Of a stretch of DNA of 38,341 bases, positions 28,147 through 38,341 are shown piece by piece; the stretch's first letter is position 1; each line of letters begins with the position of its first letter. Source of the stretch: a bacterium (GTDB lineage Bacteria; Patescibacteriota; Dojkabacteria; B142; OLB20); the NCBI GenBank assembly GCA_021463645.1, contig JAJTYI010000003.1, positions 1-38,341 of the forward strand. The letters are read 5' to 3'. The translations under genes and the position numbers were made by a program. The notes beneath the pieces were generated by a model. That model did not search any database, was not told where the DNA came from, and saw only the letters and a list, made by a program, of their open reading frames with translations.

Positions 28147-31100
28147 ATGGAAAGACTGTCTATTCCCAGTTCTGGTACTTTTGATGATAGAAATCTAAAT
28201 ATTTTAGGCAACAGTTCATTACCTGAGACTAGTACCGTTCTGCCGAGCCCAGACCAACGAGGTGATGATGAAGGAGGTCAGCCTGAAGAAGGTTCACCTA
28301 AACCCATCAGCTTTGTCGATTTAACAGCAATGGATGCGAGTCTTTTAAGGACTACTTCTGATTCAAGGCTTTTTAAAGATGGCTATGAGTCAGTAGCGGG
28401 TGTAGGATCAGGGACTAGATTAAATGCAAGAAAAAAGATTGCGGCTGCACTTTCCGAACACATTAATGAAATTCCAGATGTTACGGATCCAGAATATATG
28501 CTTACCGTCCAGGATCTATTTTTGACTCAAGTTGTACAAAGAAGAAACGAATTACTCCCTGAAGATAAAATTATGCAACGAAATAATGGTTTCGTAGGAA
28601 GATTATTAGGAAGAGCAGAAGAGGGTAATTCACAACCAAGGATCGCGATGGATATTGTCAAGGAAGAAGATGGTCTAATTATGTTGGGAGAAGATGGTGA
28701 AAGAATTGTTCAAAAAATCGCTGATGAATTATATTTAAGGGCAGAAGGTCTTTCATTAGCAACTGGAGATACTGAAGGTTATGGGCTAATAGCAAATGAT
28801 CTTCAGCAGTTTGTTGATAGTGCTATTAATAAAAAAACTACTTTGCCCAGAGAATTGGTTGTTGTTTACAATGCCGTAAGAATTGCATATGAAAATAAAG
28901 TTTACGAACTTCAACTAAAAGAGGAACTTGTAACCCCATCGGAAACTCTCATAGATGCCGACGATGTAGACATTGTAGAAGCTGTACAAGAGGTTGGTTT
29001 ACAGGTTACTAACATGAATTCGCTTAGTGAGGACTTGAAGACGGAATTAACATTACTTGACCAAGCAGATCCTTCCATTTTGATTGGTATACAGTCTCTA
29101 TCCCAAAATGAACAAGCTGAGAGACGACAAGAATATGCTGATGCAATGACAAGGTTAAAGGATTATGCAGTTTCAAAATTGAAGTCTGATCAAGATAATT
29201 CTGATGAACAACCTGAGGTGATGCTAAATCGATTGGTAGAAGAGAGAATAGTTAAGGAATTAAGATTAGAAAATACCAACTTAGTAAATGTTTCTGATGA
29301 AGAAATAATAAAAGATATAAAGGCAAGTTATCATCAACATGACTCAGAAAATCCGAAGTTAGATTCAAAAGGAAGTCCAGTCTCAAGCTATGATCAATAT
29401 CTTAGAGTAATTAAGAATGACATTATTAATGAACGAATTGATGAAATTGTACAAAATGCAAATCGTCAATTGATAACTATTAGAACCGATGAAGAAGAAC
29501 GAAATGTACCTCTAAGTGAAAGAACCGTAATCACAGCTAGAGAGTCAGCTGAAAGAGACGCAAGTCAAAATCTTGATCTAGTTAAACAAGCTGAAATCTA
29601 TGAGAGTCAAAAAAGACCTGAAAAACCATGGGTAACAAAACTAAAAAGCTCTAAACTAGCTAAAAATTTGAAATTAATCGCAAACAGTGCAGGTGTTAAA
29701 GATGGCTCATCTGGTGCAGTTATGGGAGCAAGAATAGTTGGTTTAGTAATGACATTTGCGGGTGTTGCTGGAGCAATAAGTGAGATGAGAAGCCAAGATA
29801 TGGATGAAGACAACCATGACTTTAATCCATATGATTCACTTGCCGATTACGAATCATATCATCATGTGGCATGGTATGAGCAAACCGGTGATGTAGATGT
29901 AGACGAAGTGCATAGTAATGTAATGTCAGAACTAGTCCAAAGATGGGGAGATGATAATACTACGGATGATATAGACGTCTTAACGCCATTACAACAGAAT
30001 GATGCTTTGAGTGACAATGCCTTGGATGATATAACCACTAGTAGTGTGCATAGAGGAGGCAGAATTGCAGGTGGACTCGCATCTATGGCAATGACCGAGG
30101 ATGAGTTACTACAATTAGCAGAGTTGGAAGAACAACCAATGCCACAAGCTGACTTTGAAACTGGTGAGCCAGAAAACTCAACAGAAATTCCACCACAAAA
30201 ATATACAGTTACAGTTGATGGAACTGGACAAAGTTTCAATCTTGATCCAAATCTAGTTGTGACTGTACTTGAACAATTTGGTGTTGATGACGATGTCCTA
30301 AATGGGGAAATTCCTGATGGTATGACACTAAATGTTGGTGGAATGACGTTGAGAATAAACTCCGAGGCTACTGACGCAACAGCGCAACAAGACAACCCTG
30401 ATTTTGAAACAACTTTCAATCCAGCAGCGTTAGCTTCGTTACTTGGTAATGAAACATTAACAGATTTGGCAGAGGATATTGCAGATAGGGCTATGGATGT
30501 CGTTGAAGATCTTGTCGCAAAAATGGGAGTTGAACAAGTATTTGAAGAGGTTGTTGAAGAAGTCTCTAAATACGAAAGTTTAGCTCGAGCCCTAGGCGAA
30601 AAAGGTGTCGAACTAGCAGAACAAGCACCCAACACAGATTTGAAGGTAGAATTAAATACTGGTTCTCTAAAAGCATTTGGAGAGTTACTTAAGCATGGAG
30701 TATTAACAAATGTTAATGGTGTCGATTGGAATGGTTTGCAAAACGTAGGAGAAGAAATAACAGTAGTATTACATGATGGAAATATTGGAACATTTACTAA
30801 TGCTCATGAAGCAATTAGAGCTTTGTACGACACAATAACTAACTTATTGCCAGATGACTTTGAAATAACAATAGAAGGTGATGAAGACGTAGTATTGGGG
30901 AAAAATAGAGATGTTGCACCAGAGGTTTTAGTCAAAGTTTTTACTGACCCAGAAAAACTCGAGGAATTACAAGGAGAATTAGAAGACAAAGGAATAAACA
31001 TCTTCAATCTTGTCGGATTAAATCAAACAGAAGAAGGTAAAATTGAGATTCCACAAGAGACAATCGATACAGTGAAAGCAATTGTCGGAGGTGTAGCAGA

Positions 31101-34100
31101 AGCTGTTACAGGTGGACATGAAGAACCAGCTCCTGAGGTAATACAACAAGAAGTACAACCACAACCAGTTGAGGTCGTAGTTGGTGAACCGGTAACAGAA
31201 GAAGGTATAACAAATGAGCAACCAATATCTGCAGATGAATCACCCATTCAGGCAAACACTCAAAATGTTGAACCAACTGAATCATCGAATACTGTGTTTG
31301 CACCAGGTGTATTTGCTCAAGGTGACGGCGAAGAAGTAACGAATGAACAAGATCAACAGATAGAACAAAAAGCAGTTAACGTAGATACAGAACATTGGAC
31401 AACTCCATTATCTGAATTAGAGGAGGATCAACTAAAACAGAGAATGGATGAAGTTGAACAAGTATTGAACAACGTCCGAGCGGCAAACGAAGAAGAACGT
31501 GGAAAACTTCATGAAAGACAGACAATTAATGTCGATTCTATTGATGGGTTAACACAGGAAGAAATTGAGCGATTTAAGGAAATCAACCCAGAACTCGTTA
31601 AAACATATGAAGGCGATGTGGCAAAACTATTGGCTGAGGAATTTGGGATTAATCCTTCTGTAGCTAAACAAGTGGCAGCAGTTGTCGAGAATGCACCAAC
31701 AGTAGAAATCATAAATCGGGTCTTAGAGCTGGAAACACCAGAAAATGTTGTAGAAGAAGAGGCTCTACCTCAAGAAGAAATTGAAGCACCAACCGCAGAG
31801 ACTACAACAAGTGAACAAGCTGTAGAAGCGACATCTGATGCAGAAGCTGAGGTTGTGGAAGAAGTGGTAGAAAATGAAGTACCAACCGCAGAAAATACAA
31901 CTAGTGAGCAAGCTGTAGAAGCGACACCTGAGGTAGAAGGTGGAGCAGTGGAAGTAGAAGAAATAGTTGAAACTCAGACTACACCTCCTTTACCTTTTGA
32001 AAACGAAGCAATTGATAAAGAACCGATAATTAAATCTTTCAAAGTCAGTTCTGGAGGATCGTTGAGTAAAATTTTAAATGATGCTGGTTTGATGACAAAT
32101 GATTTATATGGTGAAGACGGTGCAATTGAACAATTGGAGGCAAATTCGATTGCAGTGATTGATGGAAAAGCATATATATTAGTTAATGATGACCCTTCAA
32201 CCACAGCGAAAGTATTCAATGTAATAAATCCTCGCTCAGATATGCAAGGTACTCCAGAAGGAGCAAGGTTAATAGTATTGGAACTTCCAGAGAATGTTTC
32301 GACCGATACTGATAGTTTGATTGATAACATACTCAATCCGGTGAGGAATGTACTGAGAAATCAAGAATTAACTATTGGAGATGGCCAAACATTAGATGAT
32401 GCATTTGATACAGTATTAGAATCAGTAAATAGAGAAGTACATAATCTTCCAGAAGAAGCTACTGTTGAAAACAGTGCGGATACAACTCCTGCTACTCCAA
32501 CAAATACCACAAATATTCCATTTGTAGCCACCCCTGGTGAAACACAAACTCAGGAATTTGTTGATACTGCAAGTAATCATTGGCAATCTCGAATCGAAGA
32601 ACTGGATTCTGATCAATTAGAACAAAGAATTAGTGATTCTCAGACTACGCTTAATAATGTAAGGTTGGCAACAGAGCAAGAAAAAGATACTTTACATGAA
32701 AGACAGATAATAAATGTATACTCAGCCAGGATGTTGTCTGAACAGCAGATTGCACAATTAGGTGATATAACTCCCGAATTGGTTGCACAATACGAAGGTG
32801 ATATTGCAGAATTACTAACAACAGAATTCGGAATGAACGGGTCTATTGCTAAACAGGTAGCTGCCGTAATTGAAAATGCACCTACTGTAGAAATAATCAA
32901 TAGAGTTTTGGAGTTGAACGGTATTGAAACAGCTCAAGCACCGGTTGAAGCACCTGAAATTCCTGTAGAAGCTACACAACAACCATTTGATGAAGCTCCT
33001 GTCGTAGTAGAACCTGCACCAGCAGAAGAAACTGTCGAACAGATTCCTACTGAAGTAGCTGAGACAGCAGCAGAAGTGCCACCATTCGTCTTACCAGAGT
33101 TACCCGAAGAAACGGTTACGGAAACACCAGAACAAGCTGAAGAGCCTCAAGAGGGATTAGAAGAGGAGGCTGAAGTGGAACAACCAGAAGTAGCTCCTGA
33201 AACTGTCGAGACGCCAGAAGCGCCATTGGCAGAAACTGGGGTAGTCGAAGAAGAATTAAAATTCCCGGAATTCATGCAAATCACATTTAACATAAATGGA
33301 ATAGAACAAACATATAGAATAGAGACAGCTCAAATTTCCGAAATATTACAAAACGTAGGATACGAGAACGAAGTATTAGAAGCATATATCCCAGACAATA
33401 TTACTGGATCAATCGCAGGAATAGATTTTACAATCTCCTCTGAAGGAGCAGATAGTAATGCAAATACACCAGTAATAGATAGCAGTTTTAACCCAGCAGC
33501 AATAGCAGCATTAACAGGGAATCAAGATTTAGTTGATGCCGCAGAAGGAATATATCAAAAGATATTGGATATAGTAGGTGACCAAGCATCCAAGATGGGA
33601 TTAGAAAATGCATTTGAGACAGCAATGACAGAAGCAGGTAAATACGAAAGTTTAGCAAAAGCATTAGTAGCACTTGGAATAGAAAACGCACCGAATGAAG
33701 ATGTAAAGATAAATATTGATGCAGGACCATTAGCTCCATTTGGTAGATTGATACAAGAAGGGATACAAGCTAATGTCAATGGAGACTTTAGTGGATTAGA
33801 AGCAGCAGGACAAGAGATAACCGTATTACTACAAGATGGAAGTATAGGAACATTTGTAAATTCACATGTTGCGGTTGATGAACTATACAATACAATAACT
33901 AGCTTACTACCAGATGGTTACGAACTTGTAATTGAAGGTGAAAATGGAGATATAGTTTTAGGTAAGGGGCATGATATACCAGCAGAAGTACTAGTGCAGG
34001 TACTTTCAGATCCTAAATACTTAAATTTAATTCAACAGGAATTAGAGAATAAAGGCATAAACATTTTCAATCTAGTTGGATTAAATCAGACTGAAGAAGG

Positions 34101-37100
34101 AAAAATAGAGATACCTCAAGAAACAATTGACACATTTAAAGCAATTGTAGGAGGAGTCGCAGGGGCGGTAACAGCAGGAGCAGAAGCTCTTGATGAAGCA
34201 GATAATAGTGTACAACCTGAAGATGGTGGACCGGTAGATACAGATGTAGAAGTACCACAAACTGAAACAGAGCAACCACTACCAACAGTAGAAGATACAT
34301 CTGATACTGAAGGGGTGCAGGAAGAAGAACAAACAACAGGGGAACAACCTGAACCAATTGAAGAGACACCACAAGAACCTGAAGCAGAAAAACCACTATC
34401 GGCAGGAGAGGCAACATTCCCAACTGAAGGGGAACAAGAGGAAGCTCTACCAGGTGATGAGGATACAGCAGAAGAGGTGGAGGCAATAGCAGAAACTGAG
34501 TCAGCAGAGACACCTGTTGAGTATCAGGAGGTTATCGGTGGGGAAGGATCGCAAGGAAAATATGAGTGGAGAACTAAGTACTTTGAAGCACCTTCTGGAG
34601 ATGGAATAGACAGATTTTATACTGTTATAGTAGATGATGTTACAGATAATAATAATACGAGTGATTTTAAGATAATATTTAGAGCACCTTCAGCTAATGA
34701 TCCCGATGGTTCTATACAAATTACTTATCAATATGGAGACTATATACAAGGAGGAGAAGTGGTTGTATATACAGGACCGATAGACGCATTCAAAAGTGAG
34801 CCTGGTAAAGATCTTACTACTTTGTTCGATCCTATGACTATAGAGTCAGGACTTACTGAAGATACACAAGCACTTATAGAAAATTATAATGAGGGAATAG
34901 AGAAAGCTATCTCGCTAGTAACTGAAGCACGTAATTTATTTGAATATATACAAAATTTCTCGGATGGAAGTGAATCATCCCTAACTCCTCCTTCAAGTGA
35001 TTCAGAAAGTGAAGGTGATCAAGGACAACCAACGGGAACACCAAACGATCGAGTTGATGAGGAAAATTTACCTGACGAGGAAACTAATACAGAAGGAATG
35101 AATGAAAATAATGAGTTACAAACAGAGAATCGTCATCCAAGAGTAGATGAGTTGAGTAATTCGGCAGGAGAAGATGTTAAGAATTTCGTGATAGATAGTA
35201 TGCAATCTGGAGATAGAGGACAAATTAGTAGTGCTATCAATACAGTAGCTGAAATGAATAATCCTGATCCAGAGATGGTAGGGAGTGTCTTGGATTACTT
35301 TGTAAACAATAAAGGAGCCTTTTTAAATCCAGTTTACAGCAATTTTGAAACAATTCTTCAAATTATGAAGAACAATGAGGATCATAGTTTTAACGTAAAT
35401 GGAAGAGTAATAATTGTTTCAGATGAAATAAATGAATTAAAATCTGATTTGAGTTTTGAAAAAATCCTTGGACTACATTACCAACAACAAGACAGAGGAG
35501 TTTTATTACACGAAATTTTTCCAGACGAAAATACCGGAGAATTCTTAAGGCAAATCCTAGACAATCACGCTATTAGCATTAGTGTTAGACACCATGCCAT
35601 CCAAGTACTTGCTGAGATAGGTGAAGCAGAAATAGAAGACTTCAGAGAGCATTATGAAGAGGTGAGAAAAATTGAAACTCCATTTACATACTCAACCTCT
35701 CAATACTTACAAGATCTAATTGAAATTAGTCCGGAACTTAATATTGATATGGGAGAAGAAGCAGTAAGCAATTTAGAAGTTCTAGCTCAGAATGAAAAAG
35801 ATAATCCTATAAGTAATGCTATGCGGTATGAGAATGTGGAAGTTCCAAGCAGTGGTATTCCATATGAACTTTCAGAAAACCATATAGGAAGATTATTGTA
35901 TATAGTAAACTCCGAAGACTATAGTGTCATGGCTAAGCATAATGCCGTAGGAATTTTAATAAATTCAGATAGTCAACTCAGTGAAGATGTTGTTGATGAC
36001 ATAGTGGGTTTTATAAATTCACAAGATATTGGACCTGAAACAAATACAATACACGTTGAAAGATATATACGAGGATTGATGAACAAATTAACTCAAGAAA
36101 GCAGGGTTGACGTAGTTGAACAGTTACTTGAAGGACAAACTCAGAATCCATATTTAACAAGTATGTTAATGCTATATAAAGCAAACTCCTTAGGAACTTC
36201 AGAAAATGTTGAAGCATTTATAGAAACATATGAAGGGCTTGAAGAATATGAGAAAAGTCAGATTTTATGGGAATTGACTCGTATTACAATAGTTGATAAA
36301 GGACTTACAGATTTTATATACTCTCAATTACAATACGAAAGTGAAGTAGCAGAAAATCAAAATGACCCTGCGCTAAACATAAGAACAAGTGCTCTTAACT
36401 TAATCCAAAACGGTCAGGTTGAGCTTACAGAAGATGGAATGACTAGAATTCAAGAAATGGCTTTGAATGATGATTGGTTAAATGGAAGACTTGCTGCTTT
36501 GAGATTTTGGCACAATAATATAGCAGACACTGGAGTTACAGATGAAGATTTTATAGATGCCTTTAAAGAATTGATTAGGAATGCAGATGCAAATAATAAT
36601 GGCTATTTTGATATGTATCAAGAGTCAAGTTTTGTTGACGAAATTGAACCATTATTAAAGGACCCAAGACTAATGGAAACCCTTCTAGAGATGATTGAAG
36701 AAGAAGACCTTGGATATGACAAAAAGTTATGGGATCCAGTTATACTGCATATGCAAAAAATTCTATTAGAAAGTGAGAATGCCGAAGGTGTAAGTGCTCC
36801 TACAGAAACTACTGAATCAACCCCAGAAGAAGGAGATACTAGCTCCTCCGGAACAAGTCCGACTAATACTGTAACCAATACAGGGGTACGAACAGAGACT
36901 AGAAATGCAGGAGTGGAATCTCCAGCTATGAACGATGCATTTGAAGAAACTTCGGGAGTTCTTTCTAGTGAAGATCTCCAAGCTGCACAAGCAGAAATAG
37001 AAGAAGAAAGACAGACAGCCGATGGTTTGGTCAGTAATGAAGAATGGTCAAGGACAGTAGAGGATGCATTTATGAACAGTACTTATAAACCAGAACGGAG

Positions 37101-37947
37101 AACACTGTCTGAAGAATGGAAAGAATTTGTAGTTAAATTTGAGGATTTTGTAGCAGAAGTAACTCCAGAAATAAAGCTCACAGTTGAAAATGTGGCAACA
37201 TATTTTCAGGAAAACCCAATCAATGGTAATTCAATCAGAAATATTCGATTATCACTTTCTGGGCTGTTACTTGGTACAGTTATGACGAGATTTAATAAAG
37301 GTAGAAGAAGAAAAGATGCAGGACAAAGACCAGTTAGGGTTACACAGCAACAGAAATGGATAGATAATTTTGAAATTAAAAATACTAGTGACAAGATTGA
37401 TATGGTATTAGGTAGTGCAGGAATATTAGAAGAAAGCCCTTATGGTGTTCAAAAAAACGCTTTAGTTTTTAATCCTTATAATGGAACTACCGAAAAGGTG
37501 AGACTTAACGGAACAGTAAAAACCAAGACAGGATTTATTACTGTATCTCCAGAACAAGAAGTCAAACTACACTCCATTTTTTCCGGAGGATATATACCAA
37601 GAAGTGGAGTTATAAATGTTACAGATAATTCTATGAGGTTAATACCTACTCTTAACGATATTGAGGATTATTTGAAGCCAGATAAACGTGATGAATTGGA
37701 AGAGATAGTTAGTGAGGCCATCACATCAGGAATCATTGATAGTCAACTACCTCAAGATATAAAGGATGAGTTAAACGATGTAATCACTAGTTCCCAAGGA
37801 GAAACTACACCAACTGGATTATTCAGTGCACTTGTAAAAAGAATCACCGATCTATTATTAGAAAATAAATTTAAAATTGAAATAGGTGAACTTGATGGAA
37901 TGCCAGAAGATTTGAAGATCCAAGTTTTGAAATTGATGAAAGTTTGA
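28147..37947 (+). CDS. Giant acidic repeat protein (3266 aa) with mirrored domain order
   Basis: A quarter of the window is one gene. The N-terminus has no signal peptide. Residues about 1-520 are soluble and helical, and a hydrophobic stretch near 527-547 (ARIVGLVMTFAGVAGAI) may cross the membrane. Then come module A1 (about 682-992), module B1 (about 1082-1200), a region X (about 1298-1430), B2 (about 1478-1598) and A2 (about 1708-2015), joined by Glu/Pro/Thr/Val-rich acidic linkers. Residues about 2330-2870 look like helical HEAT-type repeats. A second hydrophobic stretch near 3036 (LSLSGLLLGTVM) is followed by a basic GRRRK and a folded C-terminal domain. I do not recognise the family; a membrane-linked surface or scaffold protein is the likely role. 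Confidence 0.85.
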   Translation: MERLSIPSSGTFDDRNLNILGNSSLPETSTVLPSPDQRGDDEGGQPEEGSPKPISFVDLTAMDASLLRTTSDSRLFKDGYESVAGVGSGTRLNARKKIAAALSEHINEIPDVTDPEYMLTVQDLFLTQVVQRRNELLPEDKIMQRNNGFVGRLLGRAEEGNSQPRIAMDIVKEEDGLIMLGEDGERIVQKIADELYLRAEGLSLATGDTEGYGLIANDLQQFVDSAINKKTTLPRELVVVYNAVRIAYENKVYELQLKEELVTPSETLIDADDVDIVEAVQEVGLQVTNMNSLSEDLKTELTLLDQADPSILIGIQSLSQNEQAERRQEYADAMTRLKDYAVSKLKSDQDNSDEQPEVMLNRLVEERIVKELRLENTNLVNVSDEEIIKDIKASYHQHDSENPKLDSKGSPVSSYDQYLRVIKNDIINERIDEIVQNANRQLITIRTDEEERNVPLSERTVITARESAERDASQNLDLVKQAEIYESQKRPEKPWVTKLKSSKLAKNLKLIANSAGVKDGSSGAVMGARIVGLVMTFAGVAGAISEMRSQDMDEDNHDFNPYDSLADYESYHHVAWYEQTGDVDVDEVHSNVMSELVQRWGDDNTTDDIDVLTPLQQNDALSDNALDDITTSSVHRGGRIAGGLASMAMTEDELLQLAELEEQPMPQADFETGEPENSTEIPPQKYTVTVDGTGQSFNLDPNLVVTVLEQFGVDDDVLNGEIPDGMTLNVGGMTLRINSEATDATAQQDNPDFETTFNPAALASLLGNETLTDLAEDIADRAMDVVEDLVAKMGVEQVFEEVVEEVSKYESLARALGEKGVELAEQAPNTDLKVELNTGSLKAFGELLKHGVLTNVNGVDWNGLQNVGEEITVVLHDGNIGTFTNAHEAIRALYDTITNLLPDDFEITIEGDEDVVLGKNRDVAPEVLVKVFTDPEKLEELQGELEDKGINIFNLVGLNQTEEGKIEIPQETIDTVKAIVGGVAEAVTGGHEEPAPEVIQQEVQPQPVEVVVGEPVTEEGITNEQPISADESPIQANTQNVEPTESSNTVFAPGVFAQGDGEEVTNEQDQQIEQKAVNVDTEHWTTPLSELEEDQLKQRMDEVEQVLNNVRAANEEERGKLHERQTINVDSIDGLTQEEIERFKEINPELVKTYEGDVAKLLAEEFGINPSVAKQVAAVVENAPTVEIINRVLELETPENVVEEEALPQEEIEAPTAETTTSEQAVEATSDAEAEVVEEVVENEVPTAENTTSEQAVEATPEVEGGAVEVEEIVETQTTPPLPFENEAIDKEPIIKSFKVSSGGSLSKILNDAGLMTNDLYGEDGAIEQLEANSIAVIDGKAYILVNDDPSTTAKVFNVINPRSDMQGTPEGARLIVLELPENVSTDTDSLIDNILNPVRNVLRNQELTIGDGQTLDDAFDTVLESVNREVHNLPEEATVENSADTTPATPTNTTNIPFVATPGETQTQEFVDTASNHWQSRIEELDSDQLEQRISDSQTTLNNVRLATEQEKDTLHERQIINVYSARMLSEQQIAQLGDITPELVAQYEGDIAELLTTEFGMNGSIAKQVAAVIENAPTVEIINRVLELNGIETAQAPVEAPEIPVEATQQPFDEAPVVVEPAPAEETVEQIPTEVAETAAEVPPFVLPELPEETVTETPEQAEEPQEGLEEEAEVEQPEVAPETVETPEAPLAETGVVEEELKFPEFMQITFNINGIEQTYRIETAQISEILQNVGYENEVLEAYIPDNITGSIAGIDFTISSEGADSNANTPVIDSSFNPAAIAALTGNQDLVDAAEGIYQKILDIVGDQASKMGLENAFETAMTEAGKYESLAKALVALGIENAPNEDVKINIDAGPLAPFGRLIQEGIQANVNGDFSGLEAAGQEITVLLQDGSIGTFVNSHVAVDELYNTITSLLPDGYELVIEGENGDIVLGKGHDIPAEVLVQVLSDPKYLNLIQQELENKGINIFNLVGLNQTEEGKIEIPQETIDTFKAIVGGVAGAVTAGAEALDEADNSVQPEDGGPVDTDVEVPQTETEQPLPTVEDTSDTEGVQEEEQTTGEQPEPIEETPQEPEAEKPLSAGEATFPTEGEQEEALPGDEDTAEEVEAIAETESAETPVEYQEVIGGEGSQGKYEWRTKYFEAPSGDGIDRFYTVIVDDVTDNNNTSDFKIIFRAPSANDPDGSIQITYQYGDYIQGGEVVVYTGPIDAFKSEPGKDLTTLFDPMTIESGLTEDTQALIENYNEGIEKAISLVTEARNLFEYIQNFSDGSESSLTPPSSDSESEGDQGQPTGTPNDRVDEENLPDEETNTEGMNENNELQTENRHPRVDELSNSAGEDVKNFVIDSMQSGDRGQISSAINTVAEMNNPDPEMVGSVLDYFVNNKGAFLNPVYSNFETILQIMKNNEDHSFNVNGRVIIVSDEINELKSDLSFEKILGLHYQQQDRGVLLHEIFPDENTGEFLRQILDNHAISISVRHHAIQVLAEIGEAEIEDFREHYEEVRKIETPFTYSTSQYLQDLIEISPELNIDMGEEAVSNLEVLAQNEKDNPISNAMRYENVEVPSSGIPYELSENHIGRLLYIVNSEDYSVMAKHNAVGILINSDSQLSEDVVDDIVGFINSQDIGPETNTIHVERYIRGLMNKLTQESRVDVVEQLLEGQTQNPYLTSMLMLYKANSLGTSENVEAFIETYEGLEEYEKSQILWELTRITIVDKGLTDFIYSQLQYESEVAENQNDPALNIRTSALNLIQNGQVELTEDGMTRIQEMALNDDWLNGRLAALRFWHNNIADTGVTDEDFIDAFKELIRNADANNNGYFDMYQESSFVDEIEPLLKDPRLMETLLEMIEEEDLGYDKKLWDPVILHMQKILLESENAEGVSAPTETTESTPEEGDTSSSGTSPTNTVTNTGVRTETRNAGVESPAMNDAFEETSGVLSSEDLQAAQAEIEEERQTADGLVSNEEWSRTVEDAFMNSTYKPERRTLSEEWKEFVVKFEDFVAEVTPEIKLTVENVATYFQENPINGNSIRNIRLSLSGLLLGTVMTRFNKGRRRKDAGQRPVRVTQQQKWIDNFEIKNTSDKIDMVLGSAGILEESPYGVQKNALVFNPYNGTTEKVRLNGTVKTKTGFITVSPEQEVKLHSIFSGGYIPRSGVINVTDNSMRLIPTLNDIEDYLKPDKRDELEEIVSEAITSGIIDSQLPQDIKDELNDVITSSQGETTPTGLFSALVKRITDLLLENKFKIEIGELDGMPEDLKIQVLKLMKV
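30190..31120 (+). repeat. Giant protein module A, copy 1
   Basis: Encodes roughly residues 682-992: a beta-rich start, FNPAALASLLGNETL, SKYESLARALGEKG, VVLHDGNIGTFTNAHEA and a closing segment with NIFNLVGLNQTEEGKIEIPQ. The same series recurs about 1020 residues later in copy 2. Confidence 0.85.
31393..31745 (+). repeat. Giant protein module B, copy 1
   Basis: Encodes HWTTPLSELEEDQLKQRM, LHERQTINV, YEGDVAKLLAEEFGI and QVAAVVENAPTVEIINRVLE. Matches copy 2 at 32578-32935. Confidence 0.85.
32578..32935 (+). repeat. Giant protein module B, copy 2
   Basis: Encodes HWQSRIEELDSDQLEQRI, LHERQIINV, YEGDIAELLTTEFGM and QVAAVIENAPTVEIINRVLE. Clearly homologous to copy 1 at 31393-31745, and it lies on the other side of region X. 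Confidence 0.85.
33270..34190 (+). repeat. Giant protein module A, copy 2
   Basis: Encodes FNPAAIAALTGNQDL, GKYESLAKALVALG, VLLQDGSIGTFVNSHVA and the same closing segment as copy 1. DNA differs at many silent sites, so the duplication is not recent. Confidence 0.85.
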
Positions 37948-37994
37948 AATTGAGAAGAATGTTGTATTACTAAGTATGCCGAGGAGAGGACTCG

Positions 37995-38012
37995 CCTGGC
38001 TACGCAGTCAGG
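37995..38012. repeat. Palindromic insert in the T loop (18 bp)
   Basis: On the minus strand it reads CCTGACTGCGTAGCCAGG, with CCTG/CAGG ends. It lies between T55 and C56 of the tRNA-Leu remnant. Taking it out restores a perfect 5-bp T stem and the 7-base loop TTCGAGT. Confidence 0.75.
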
Positions 38013-38040
38013 AACCTCCACCCCCGAAGGGACTAGTTCC

Positions 38041-38076
38041 CCTGCCTGTCTACCTGCGCAGACAGGCGCAGGCAGG
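38041..38076. repeat. Palindromic insert in the anticodon loop (36 bp)
   Basis: Eight-base inverted ends CCTGCCTG and CAGGCAGG enclose a second nested palindrome (CCTGTCT/AGACAGG). It shares the unit CCTGNCTGCG with the 18-bp insert, so both belong to one repeat family. It splits the UAG anticodon. Confidence 0.8.
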
Positions 38077-38081
38077 TAAGA

Positions 38082-38333
38082 CTAGCGCGTCTTCAGATGC
38101 ATTTCTGTAAGAAGCTTCTCTTTATTTGAACTAATTTTTAAGAATTTCTCATAATCTCTCGCTGATAAACGATTAGTAAATTCTTTGGTATATATCAATT
38201 CAAATGGTGTGTATTTTTTAGTAGAGAATACTTTTTTTTGATTATGAGAGAGGAGACGCTTAACTGGGTCACTACTCATGCCAACATAAAACCAATTATT
38301 GTTTATACTTTTTATTATATAAACGAAAAACAT
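38082..38333 (-). CDS. GIY-YIG family endonuclease-like protein
   Basis: An 83-residue single-domain GIY-YIG protein. The signature appears as VYIIKSINNNWFYVGMSSDPVKRL, followed by the family's HN and YTPFELIYTKEF region and the acidic YEKFLK. Such small stand-alone proteins are nucleases of unknown target, common next to tRNA genes and in CPR and Bacteroidetes genomes. The last two sense codons (ACG CGC) and the TAG stop are shared with the tRNA-Leu remnant. The start ATG is close to the window edge, and upstream control is not visible. Confidence 0.88.
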   Translation of the reverse strand: MFFVYIIKSINNNWFYVGMSSDPVKRLLSHNQKKVFSTKKYTPFELIYTKEFTNRLSARDYEKFLKISSNKEKLLTEMHLKTR

Positions 38334-38341
38334 TATTATCA

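Follow-up and report, generated by a model that had tools for sequence, protein, structure and literature searches.

Close to the end of a contig from the Dojkabacteria (assembly GCA_021463645.1, here G000) lies a sequence that reads as a large part of a tRNA-Leu(UAG) gene, lacks its 5' part and is broken by two palindromes. The question raised by this locus is what brought it about, i.e., if palindromic elements moved into a tRNA gene, as put forward in the initial annotation, or if another event had separated the 5' part from the rest. The window, that is, the whole stretch of 38,341 nucleotides that was analysed, is contig C3 of this genome and ends with the contig at position 38341.

The interrupted copy of tRNA-Leu(UAG)

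On the minus strand, positions 37977–38092 correspond to the 3' part of tRNA-Leu(UAG), interrupted by palindromes of 36 and 18 nt. Read from 38092 to 37977, the order is AGACGCGCTAGTCTTA, the 36-mer CCTGCCTGCGCCTGTCTGCGCAGGTAGACAGGCAGG, GGAACTAGTCCCTTCGGGGGTGGAGGTT, the 18-mer CCTGACTGCGTAGCCAGG and CGAGTCCTCTCCTCGGCA. The three tRNA pieces represent positions 21–83 of the intact tRNA-Leu(UAG) that the initial annotation had proposed to look for, and that is present in the same genome at C7:22864–22944, where it scores 59.4 bits with the Rfam tRNA model. The spliced alignment of the remnant with this gene scores 46.0, against 7.1 ± 0.5 (maximum 8.0) for dinucleotide shuffles, which bears out the earlier reading of this region as a real tRNA remnant. 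Leaving the inserts aside, the remnant departs from the intact gene in the acceptor 3' strand only (CTCCTCGGC versus CTTCCCGGC), and its second piece is identical in 29 of 29 positions when an ambiguous junction base is counted. Neither ARAGORN nor Rfam at the gathering score gave a match in the raw window, as expected for an interrupted half gene; a known RNA family or intron within the inserts was rejected from the same lack of Rfam matches in the window at the gathering score. It was also correctly noted before that both inserts start with CCTG, end with CAGG, have CCTGNCTGCG in common, and are located one in the anticodon loop and the other in the T loop. The features of the locus are:

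37943–37976, minus strand: sequence apparently native to the downstream side of the original tRNA-Leu(UAG), TACTTAGTAATACAACATTCTTCT..., which aligns to the tRNA flank in the same-genus genome G001
37977–38092, minus strand: very probably the displaced 3' part of tRNA-Leu(UAG), from the spliced alignment to C7:22864–22944 and the alignment of its 3' end and flank to the G001 tRNA
37977–37994, minus strand: remnant piece 3, with the end of the T loop, the 3' side of the T stem and the acceptor 3' strand CCTCGGC plus A; matches the G001 acceptor
37995–38012, no strand: imperfect 18-nt palindrome in the T loop; a clean 18-nt gap against the G001 tRNA
38013–38040, minus strand: remnant piece 2, with the rest of the anticodon arm, the variable arm and the 5' side of the T stem, from the alignment
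38041–38076, no strand: 36-nt palindrome in the anticodon loop, from its sequence and fold; not found in the functional tRNAs of G000 and G001
38077–38092, minus strand: remnant piece 1, with the 3' side of the D stem, the 5' side of the anticodon stem and the UAG anticodon, from sequence and alignment
38082–38333, minus strand: GIY-YIG nuclease ORF of 83 aa matching PF01541, whose last codons, ACG CGC TAG, lie within the remnant
38255–38341, no strand: overlap of 87 bases, all identical, with one end of contig C7

A convergent ORF of 3266 aa (28147–37947, plus strand), with long acidic and internally repeated stretches, ends 30 bases short of the remnant.

The GIY-YIG gene and the proposed contig join

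The 83-aa ORF adjoins the remnant on its upstream side and on the same strand. It matches PF01541 with E = 4.3e-16 and 59.4 bits, against a Pfam cut-off of 22.6, and its residues Y5, G18, R26 and E62 are invariant among 14 relatives; with the cut-off passed and the catalytic residues conserved, it belongs to the GIY-YIG family. The end of C7 carries the intact tRNA-Leu(UAG) and then, after a gap of 15 nt, the first 26 codons of this same ORF. Since the ends of C7 and C3 share 87 identical bases, the locus would read: intact tRNA-Leu(UAG), GIY-YIG ORF, displaced 3' half of the tRNA. The join is made at the level of the assembly, and it is supported by synteny, with both flanks homologous to a single contig of G001. 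Neither the ORF that ends in the remnant nor the intact gene on the adjoining contig figured in the initial annotation.

Between the intact tRNA and the remnant, the 83-aa ORF is the only gene, and no tyrosine integrase is encoded by the element. No intron was matched by Rfam, either in the window or in those GIY-YIG loci that were searched, so that nothing marks these loci as group I introns; moreover, the tRNA that adjoins the ORF, be it downstream or upstream, is complete by itself. A further, older 5' piece of the tRNA, TGCCGGGATGGC, followed by a hairpin, lies approximately 150 bp upstream of the intact gene.

A homologous site without the gene

In G001 the tRNA-Leu(UAG) gene has flanks homologous to those of G000 on both sides, and the site contains neither a GIY-YIG ORF nor a displaced 3' piece. 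The G000 remnant and its downstream flank align to the 3' end and flank of this functional tRNA; the 18-nt palindrome appears as a gap in the alignment, and G001 is also matched over the first 16 bases at the start of the remnant. The acceptor of the G001 tRNA-Leu is GCCGAGG/CCTCGGC, and the remnant also has CCTCGGC, whereas the intact G000 copy has GCCGGGA/TCCCGGC. Because the remnant keeps the G001-type acceptor strand and the intact G000 copy differs, the remnant can be taken as the 3' end that the chromosomal gene originally had, and the one in current use would have arrived with the element. The older 5' piece with its hairpin is common to both genomes, and therefore an earlier event preceded the current insertion.

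The same arrangement in G000 and in relatives

The design is repeated in G000 at tRNA-Pro(UGG), where a 5' piece, the intact gene, an ORF and a 3' piece with hairpins follow one another, and a related arrangement is found at tRNA-Ser(GCU). At the latter (L052/L003, C6:252900-254660), a GIY-YIG ORF and the intact gene are accompanied by two dead copies that flank a gene which looks like an aminoglycoside-phosphotransferase-type kinase; a third dead copy lies 8 kb away (L200, C6:244700-246000), and all the dead copies have hairpins in the D and anticodon arms.

A search with the window ORF against 145 relatives gave matches in 54 genomes, and the loci retrieved contained 122 unique related ORFs. 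Among these, the ORFs that adjoin a tRNA or tmRNA gene are on its strand in 85 cases and on the opposite strand in one; of the 85, the tRNA is immediately downstream in 48 and upstream in 37. Most commonly, the ORF runs into an intact downstream tRNA, with its stop codon inside the tRNA in 27 of the 48 loci, and 10 of these 27 stops fall at the conserved T8-A9-G10. A partial copy of the same tRNA lies beyond the ORF in 35/48 loci of the downstream type and 9/33 of the upstream type. Alignment scores of at least 14 were obtained for 43 of 82 pairs with the own tRNA, versus 8 of 492 with mismatched isotypes, and identity between the displaced pieces and the intact gene is 97%. In most relatives either the 5' or the 3' half is displaced, with splits at about positions 26–32, 44–47 or 54–60. 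A single-protein scan of named genomes revealed five loci, among them one at tRNA-Leu(GAG) in Berkelbacteria GWA2_35_9 and others at tRNA-Arg(ACG) in two Bacteroidetes genomes. A homologue from Berkelbacteria shows 55% identity to the window protein.

An ORF tree was built from the first 75 residues, which leaves the tRNA-encoded C-termini almost wholly outside. Mapped on this tree, the target tRNA requires 44 changes, against 57.1 ± 1.7 when shuffled. When each ORF is compared with its nearest relative from a different host family, the tRNA isotype is the same in 29 of 79 cases, where 6.8 would be expected. The window ORF falls together with three further tRNA-Leu ORFs, which come from other families. 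The tree is poorly resolved, with 7 of 76 branches starred. From these sequence comparisons, the ORFs group by target tRNA and not by host, as target-specific homing would predict. A homing element is recognised by an ORF that is present or absent at homologous sites and by lineages tied to the target, which is the pattern found here.

Several loci extend this picture. At one tRNA-Ser site (L104) the order is ORF, tRNA, ORF and 3' piece, and at another (L137) two near-identical ORF-tRNA units follow in succession, which suggests repeated insertion at the same tRNA-Ser gene. GIY-YIG ORFs also lie approximately 100–330 nt downstream of tmRNA (L006 (rc 860-1316), L079, L068, L072, L086, L095, L096, L110, L146 and L151); in G000 the tmRNA match spans 463 nt and includes a palindrome-like insert, CCCGCCTTCGCGTAAGCTTCGGCGGACAAG, within what is presumably a functional gene. 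Two closely similar GIY-YIG ORFs in G000 (L004 and L005, C6:43370 and 45953) belong to a different subgroup and lie 2.6 kb from each other, each flanked by TGTCACCCCTGCGAAGGCAGGGGTC-type repeats. Displaced 3' pieces with no GIY-YIG ORF nearby occur in G000 at tRNA-Gln(CUG) (L197, C2:33200-34800), tRNA-Asn (L198, C4:185200-186800) and tRNA-Gln(UUG) (L199, C9:118300-119700), with 5' pieces as well at both tRNA-Gln loci. In the T loop, these pieces carry a related structured insert of about 100 nt (TCCC-hairpin-GGGA, then CAGCAGT...ACTGCTG) together with a CCTG palindrome, and the tRNA-Gln(CUG) piece has three tandem repeats; no Rfam match was obtained for these three loci at permissive thresholds.

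The palindromes

The 36-mer of the window folds far better than its shuffles (z = -4.2), which is not the case for the 18-mer by itself (z = -0.7). Of 42 displaced pieces, 29 have a palindrome whose stem reaches 6 bp or more, against 3.4 expected in shuffles. In relatives, loops or stem boundaries are the site of 27 of 32 clean inserts (19.2 expected, p = 0.002); a fold with z below -1.5 is obtained for 25 of the 32. Recurrent forms are a 30-nt insert made of two 15-nt hairpins and a 20-nt one, CCTGNCTGCCGNCAGG; elsewhere a hairpin replaces a whole arm, e.g., the anticodon arm in four tRNA-Asp elements.

The initial annotation had proposed a palindromic mini-element that inserts into tRNA loops. 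The placement in loops stands, and related palindromes do occur in the loops of other dead copies, with all ten strict matches of G000 located within dead tRNA copies. Specificity for tRNA does not hold: only 8 of 36 further palindromes sampled in relatives have joined flanks that match a tRNA, and a Bacteroidales genome has 59 copies, of which the sampled ones lie outside tRNA genes. On account of these copies in relatives and in Bacteroidetes, a palindrome restricted to tRNA in all genomes was rejected. Palindromes driven by a RAYT were likewise rejected, given that the Y1 transposase (PF01797) gave no match in G000 (88% complete) and is present in only 21 of 58 relatives. The strict CCTG motif occurs in 11 of 15 genomes with related GIY-YIG ORFs and in one of 43 without them; this co-occurrence across the 58 relatives (Fisher p = 7e-8, for genomes that are not independent) suggests linkage or shared spread of the strict palindrome and the tRNA-type GIY-YIG ORFs. 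As REP-like hairpins, the palindromes are dispersed, and they accumulate in the loops of dead tRNA copies; of the earlier readings the closest to this is that of a repeat which spread after the tRNA had lost its 5' end.

Proposed mechanism and alternative explanations

Very probably, what the window contains is the 3' half of the original tRNA-Leu(UAG) gene, displaced and left behind by the insertion of a very small mobile element. From the sequence comparisons, we conclude that such elements would be integrase-free and of the homing type, splitting a tRNA gene and supplying the half that is lost. The sequences themselves show the architecture, a relative's site that lacks the ORF, the adjacency on one strand, the grouping by target and the palindromes; DNA cleavage, homing, the immunity of the rescued copy and the way in which palindromes arrive are steps that we infer. 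The element would consist of one GIY-YIG endonuclease ORF plus a copy of the tRNA part that its insertion cuts off, so that the split gene would be restored in the same event. The endonuclease would cut the tRNA gene of a cell without the element, and homologous recombination through the tRNA halves and flanks would repair the break with the element-bearing allele as template, yielding the intact tRNA, the ORF and the displaced half. Being useless, displaced halves may then become hosts for short palindromic REP-like hairpins, mostly at loops and stem boundaries; speculatively, palindromes in the displaced half could break up the direct repeat, so that insertions with them would be lost less often by recombination. 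Related ORFs would act alike on most kinds of tRNA gene, and tmRNA is probably a target too. Some observations count against homing: the rescued intact tRNA retains almost all of the target sequence, the upstream-type loci with a detectable 3' remnant are few (see above), and the tRNA-Gln and tRNA-Asn remnants of G000 lack an adjoining GIY-YIG ORF. In addition, a survey of insertions in CPR rRNA genes judged that the GIY-YIG genes there were not spread by homing (PMC11270868).

Could the palindromes have come first, as a mobile mini-element that inserted in the tRNA loops and killed the copy, the GIY-YIG ORF being a bystander? The loops of many dead tRNA copies do hold palindromes, and in G000 the strict copies are confined to dead tRNAs. 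The missing 5' part is nevertheless better explained by a split, in which the GIY-YIG element would have divided the gene and provided it with a new 3' part, than by decay; together with the G001 site, where both ORF and 3' remnant are lacking, this largely refutes the palindromes as the main event. Added to this, tRNA remnants associate with GIY-YIG genes across the phylum and palindromes occur outside tRNA too, and we consider this origin distinctly unlikely. The remnant itself might have a function, as a tRNA-like leader or tail whose hairpins regulate the nuclease mRNA or tRNA processing. This would agree with the close identity between remnants and intact genes, and with the tRNA-Asp elements of several genomes, where hairpins sit in the same place and changes fall on both sides of the stem; the identity can also stem from recent insertion or gene conversion, the pieces vary widely in extent and side, and the hairpin sequences differ between loci, all of which leaves a functional RNA improbable.

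Two explanations without a homing nuclease are highly unlikely. An ordinary tandem duplication of the tRNA region, followed by decay and with the nuclease gene adjacent by chance, would account for the G000 tRNA-Gln and tRNA-Asn loci, where displaced pieces and tandem repeats occur and an ORF is lacking; it is at odds with the strand bias of 85 to 1, the stops inside tRNAs, the target-wise ORF tree and the occurrence in two phyla, and the frequency of ORF-tRNA adjacency therefore refutes chance. Just as doubtful is a conventional tRNA-integrated island, split by a tyrosine integrase and carrying the GIY-YIG ORF as cargo. Integrase islands are characteristically marked by a regenerated target together with a displaced fragment (Islander, PMC4383910), but a single 83-aa ORF is all that lies between the intact tRNA and the remnant, and the displacement of either half, at varied splits, is unlike a fixed crossover at the 3' end.

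Comparison with known systems

The element proposed here resembles the tRNA and tmRNA islands of the Islander type (PMC4383910) in that the target is split, the element's own sequence restores it, and a displaced fragment marks the far end. It differs from them in its size of approximately 0.3 kb, in its single nuclease gene, in the displacement of either the 5' or the 3' half, and in that the tyrosine integrase which such islands encode is missing from the element. A second point of reference is SegB of phage T4, a free-standing GIY-YIG homing endonuclease that, as summarised in PMC2988022 (citing Brok-Volchanskaya 2008), lies in a tRNA gene cluster and targets a tRNA intergenic region. As far as that summary goes, SegB and the present ORF are alike as small, intron-free GIY-YIG ORFs among tRNA genes with target-specific inheritance; the present ORF, unlike SegB, splits a tRNA gene, carries a replacement half, resides in cellular genomes and is found at many different tRNAs. 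The insertions in CPR rRNA genes, some of which encode GIY-YIG proteins, are located at the tops or bases of stem-loops (PMC11270868), and they share with the present loci the host group, GIY-YIG genes outside group I and II introns, and these stem-loop sites; those insertions lie inside rRNA genes, whereas here tRNA genes are restored and the ORFs follow their target.

With regard to the palindromes, REP elements of RAYT transposases are also short, dispersed and palindromic (PMC3733652), and GTAG or CGTC end tags serve as criteria for such elements in that work. In contrast, the two inserts of the window have neither tag, and the pairing of a GTAG-tagged end with a Y1 transposase in the genome is not found in G000. 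The two inserts are 18 and 36 nt long, have CCTG/CAGG ends and lie in a dead tRNA gene. Rickettsia palindromic elements are inserted in frame in protein genes, and the likeness to them suggested in the initial annotation has to be given up, since in the features tested the inserts have no CGTC end, are much shorter and are not in a coding frame.

Significance

Literature searches for GIY-YIG genes with tRNA genes in CPR/Patescibacteria found no description, an absence that is not proof of novelty. In synthetic cleave-and-rescue gene drives, a nuclease is combined with a replacement copy of its essential target. The present elements would be a natural parallel, with a nuclease and a replacement copy as well; they differ in being natural and in having a tRNA as target, and the resistance of the rescue copy to cutting would be presumed. 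The broadest form of the proposal is tentative, quite possible and to our minds not yet the probable one: single GIY-YIG genes on essential tRNA genes may be widespread integrase-free "cut and rescue" parasites, from Patescibacteria into Bacteroidetes, which carry a replacement half and leave displaced halves, and palindromes within these would help to stabilise the insertion by interrupting the repeat or the cut site. The findings give a putative function and mode of spread to the small "GIY-YIG family" proteins that are very common in Patescibacteria, and they would account for fragments of tRNA that would be dismissed in annotation or mistaken for introns or split tRNAs. They also make testable the way in which, in these bacteria, short palindromes get into RNA-gene loops, which has been reported for rRNA insertions too. 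The tRNA genes, which are among the most conserved, would be repeatedly split and rebuilt by 0.3-kb elements that have no integrase, with dozens of different tRNA genes hit across a bacterial phylum.
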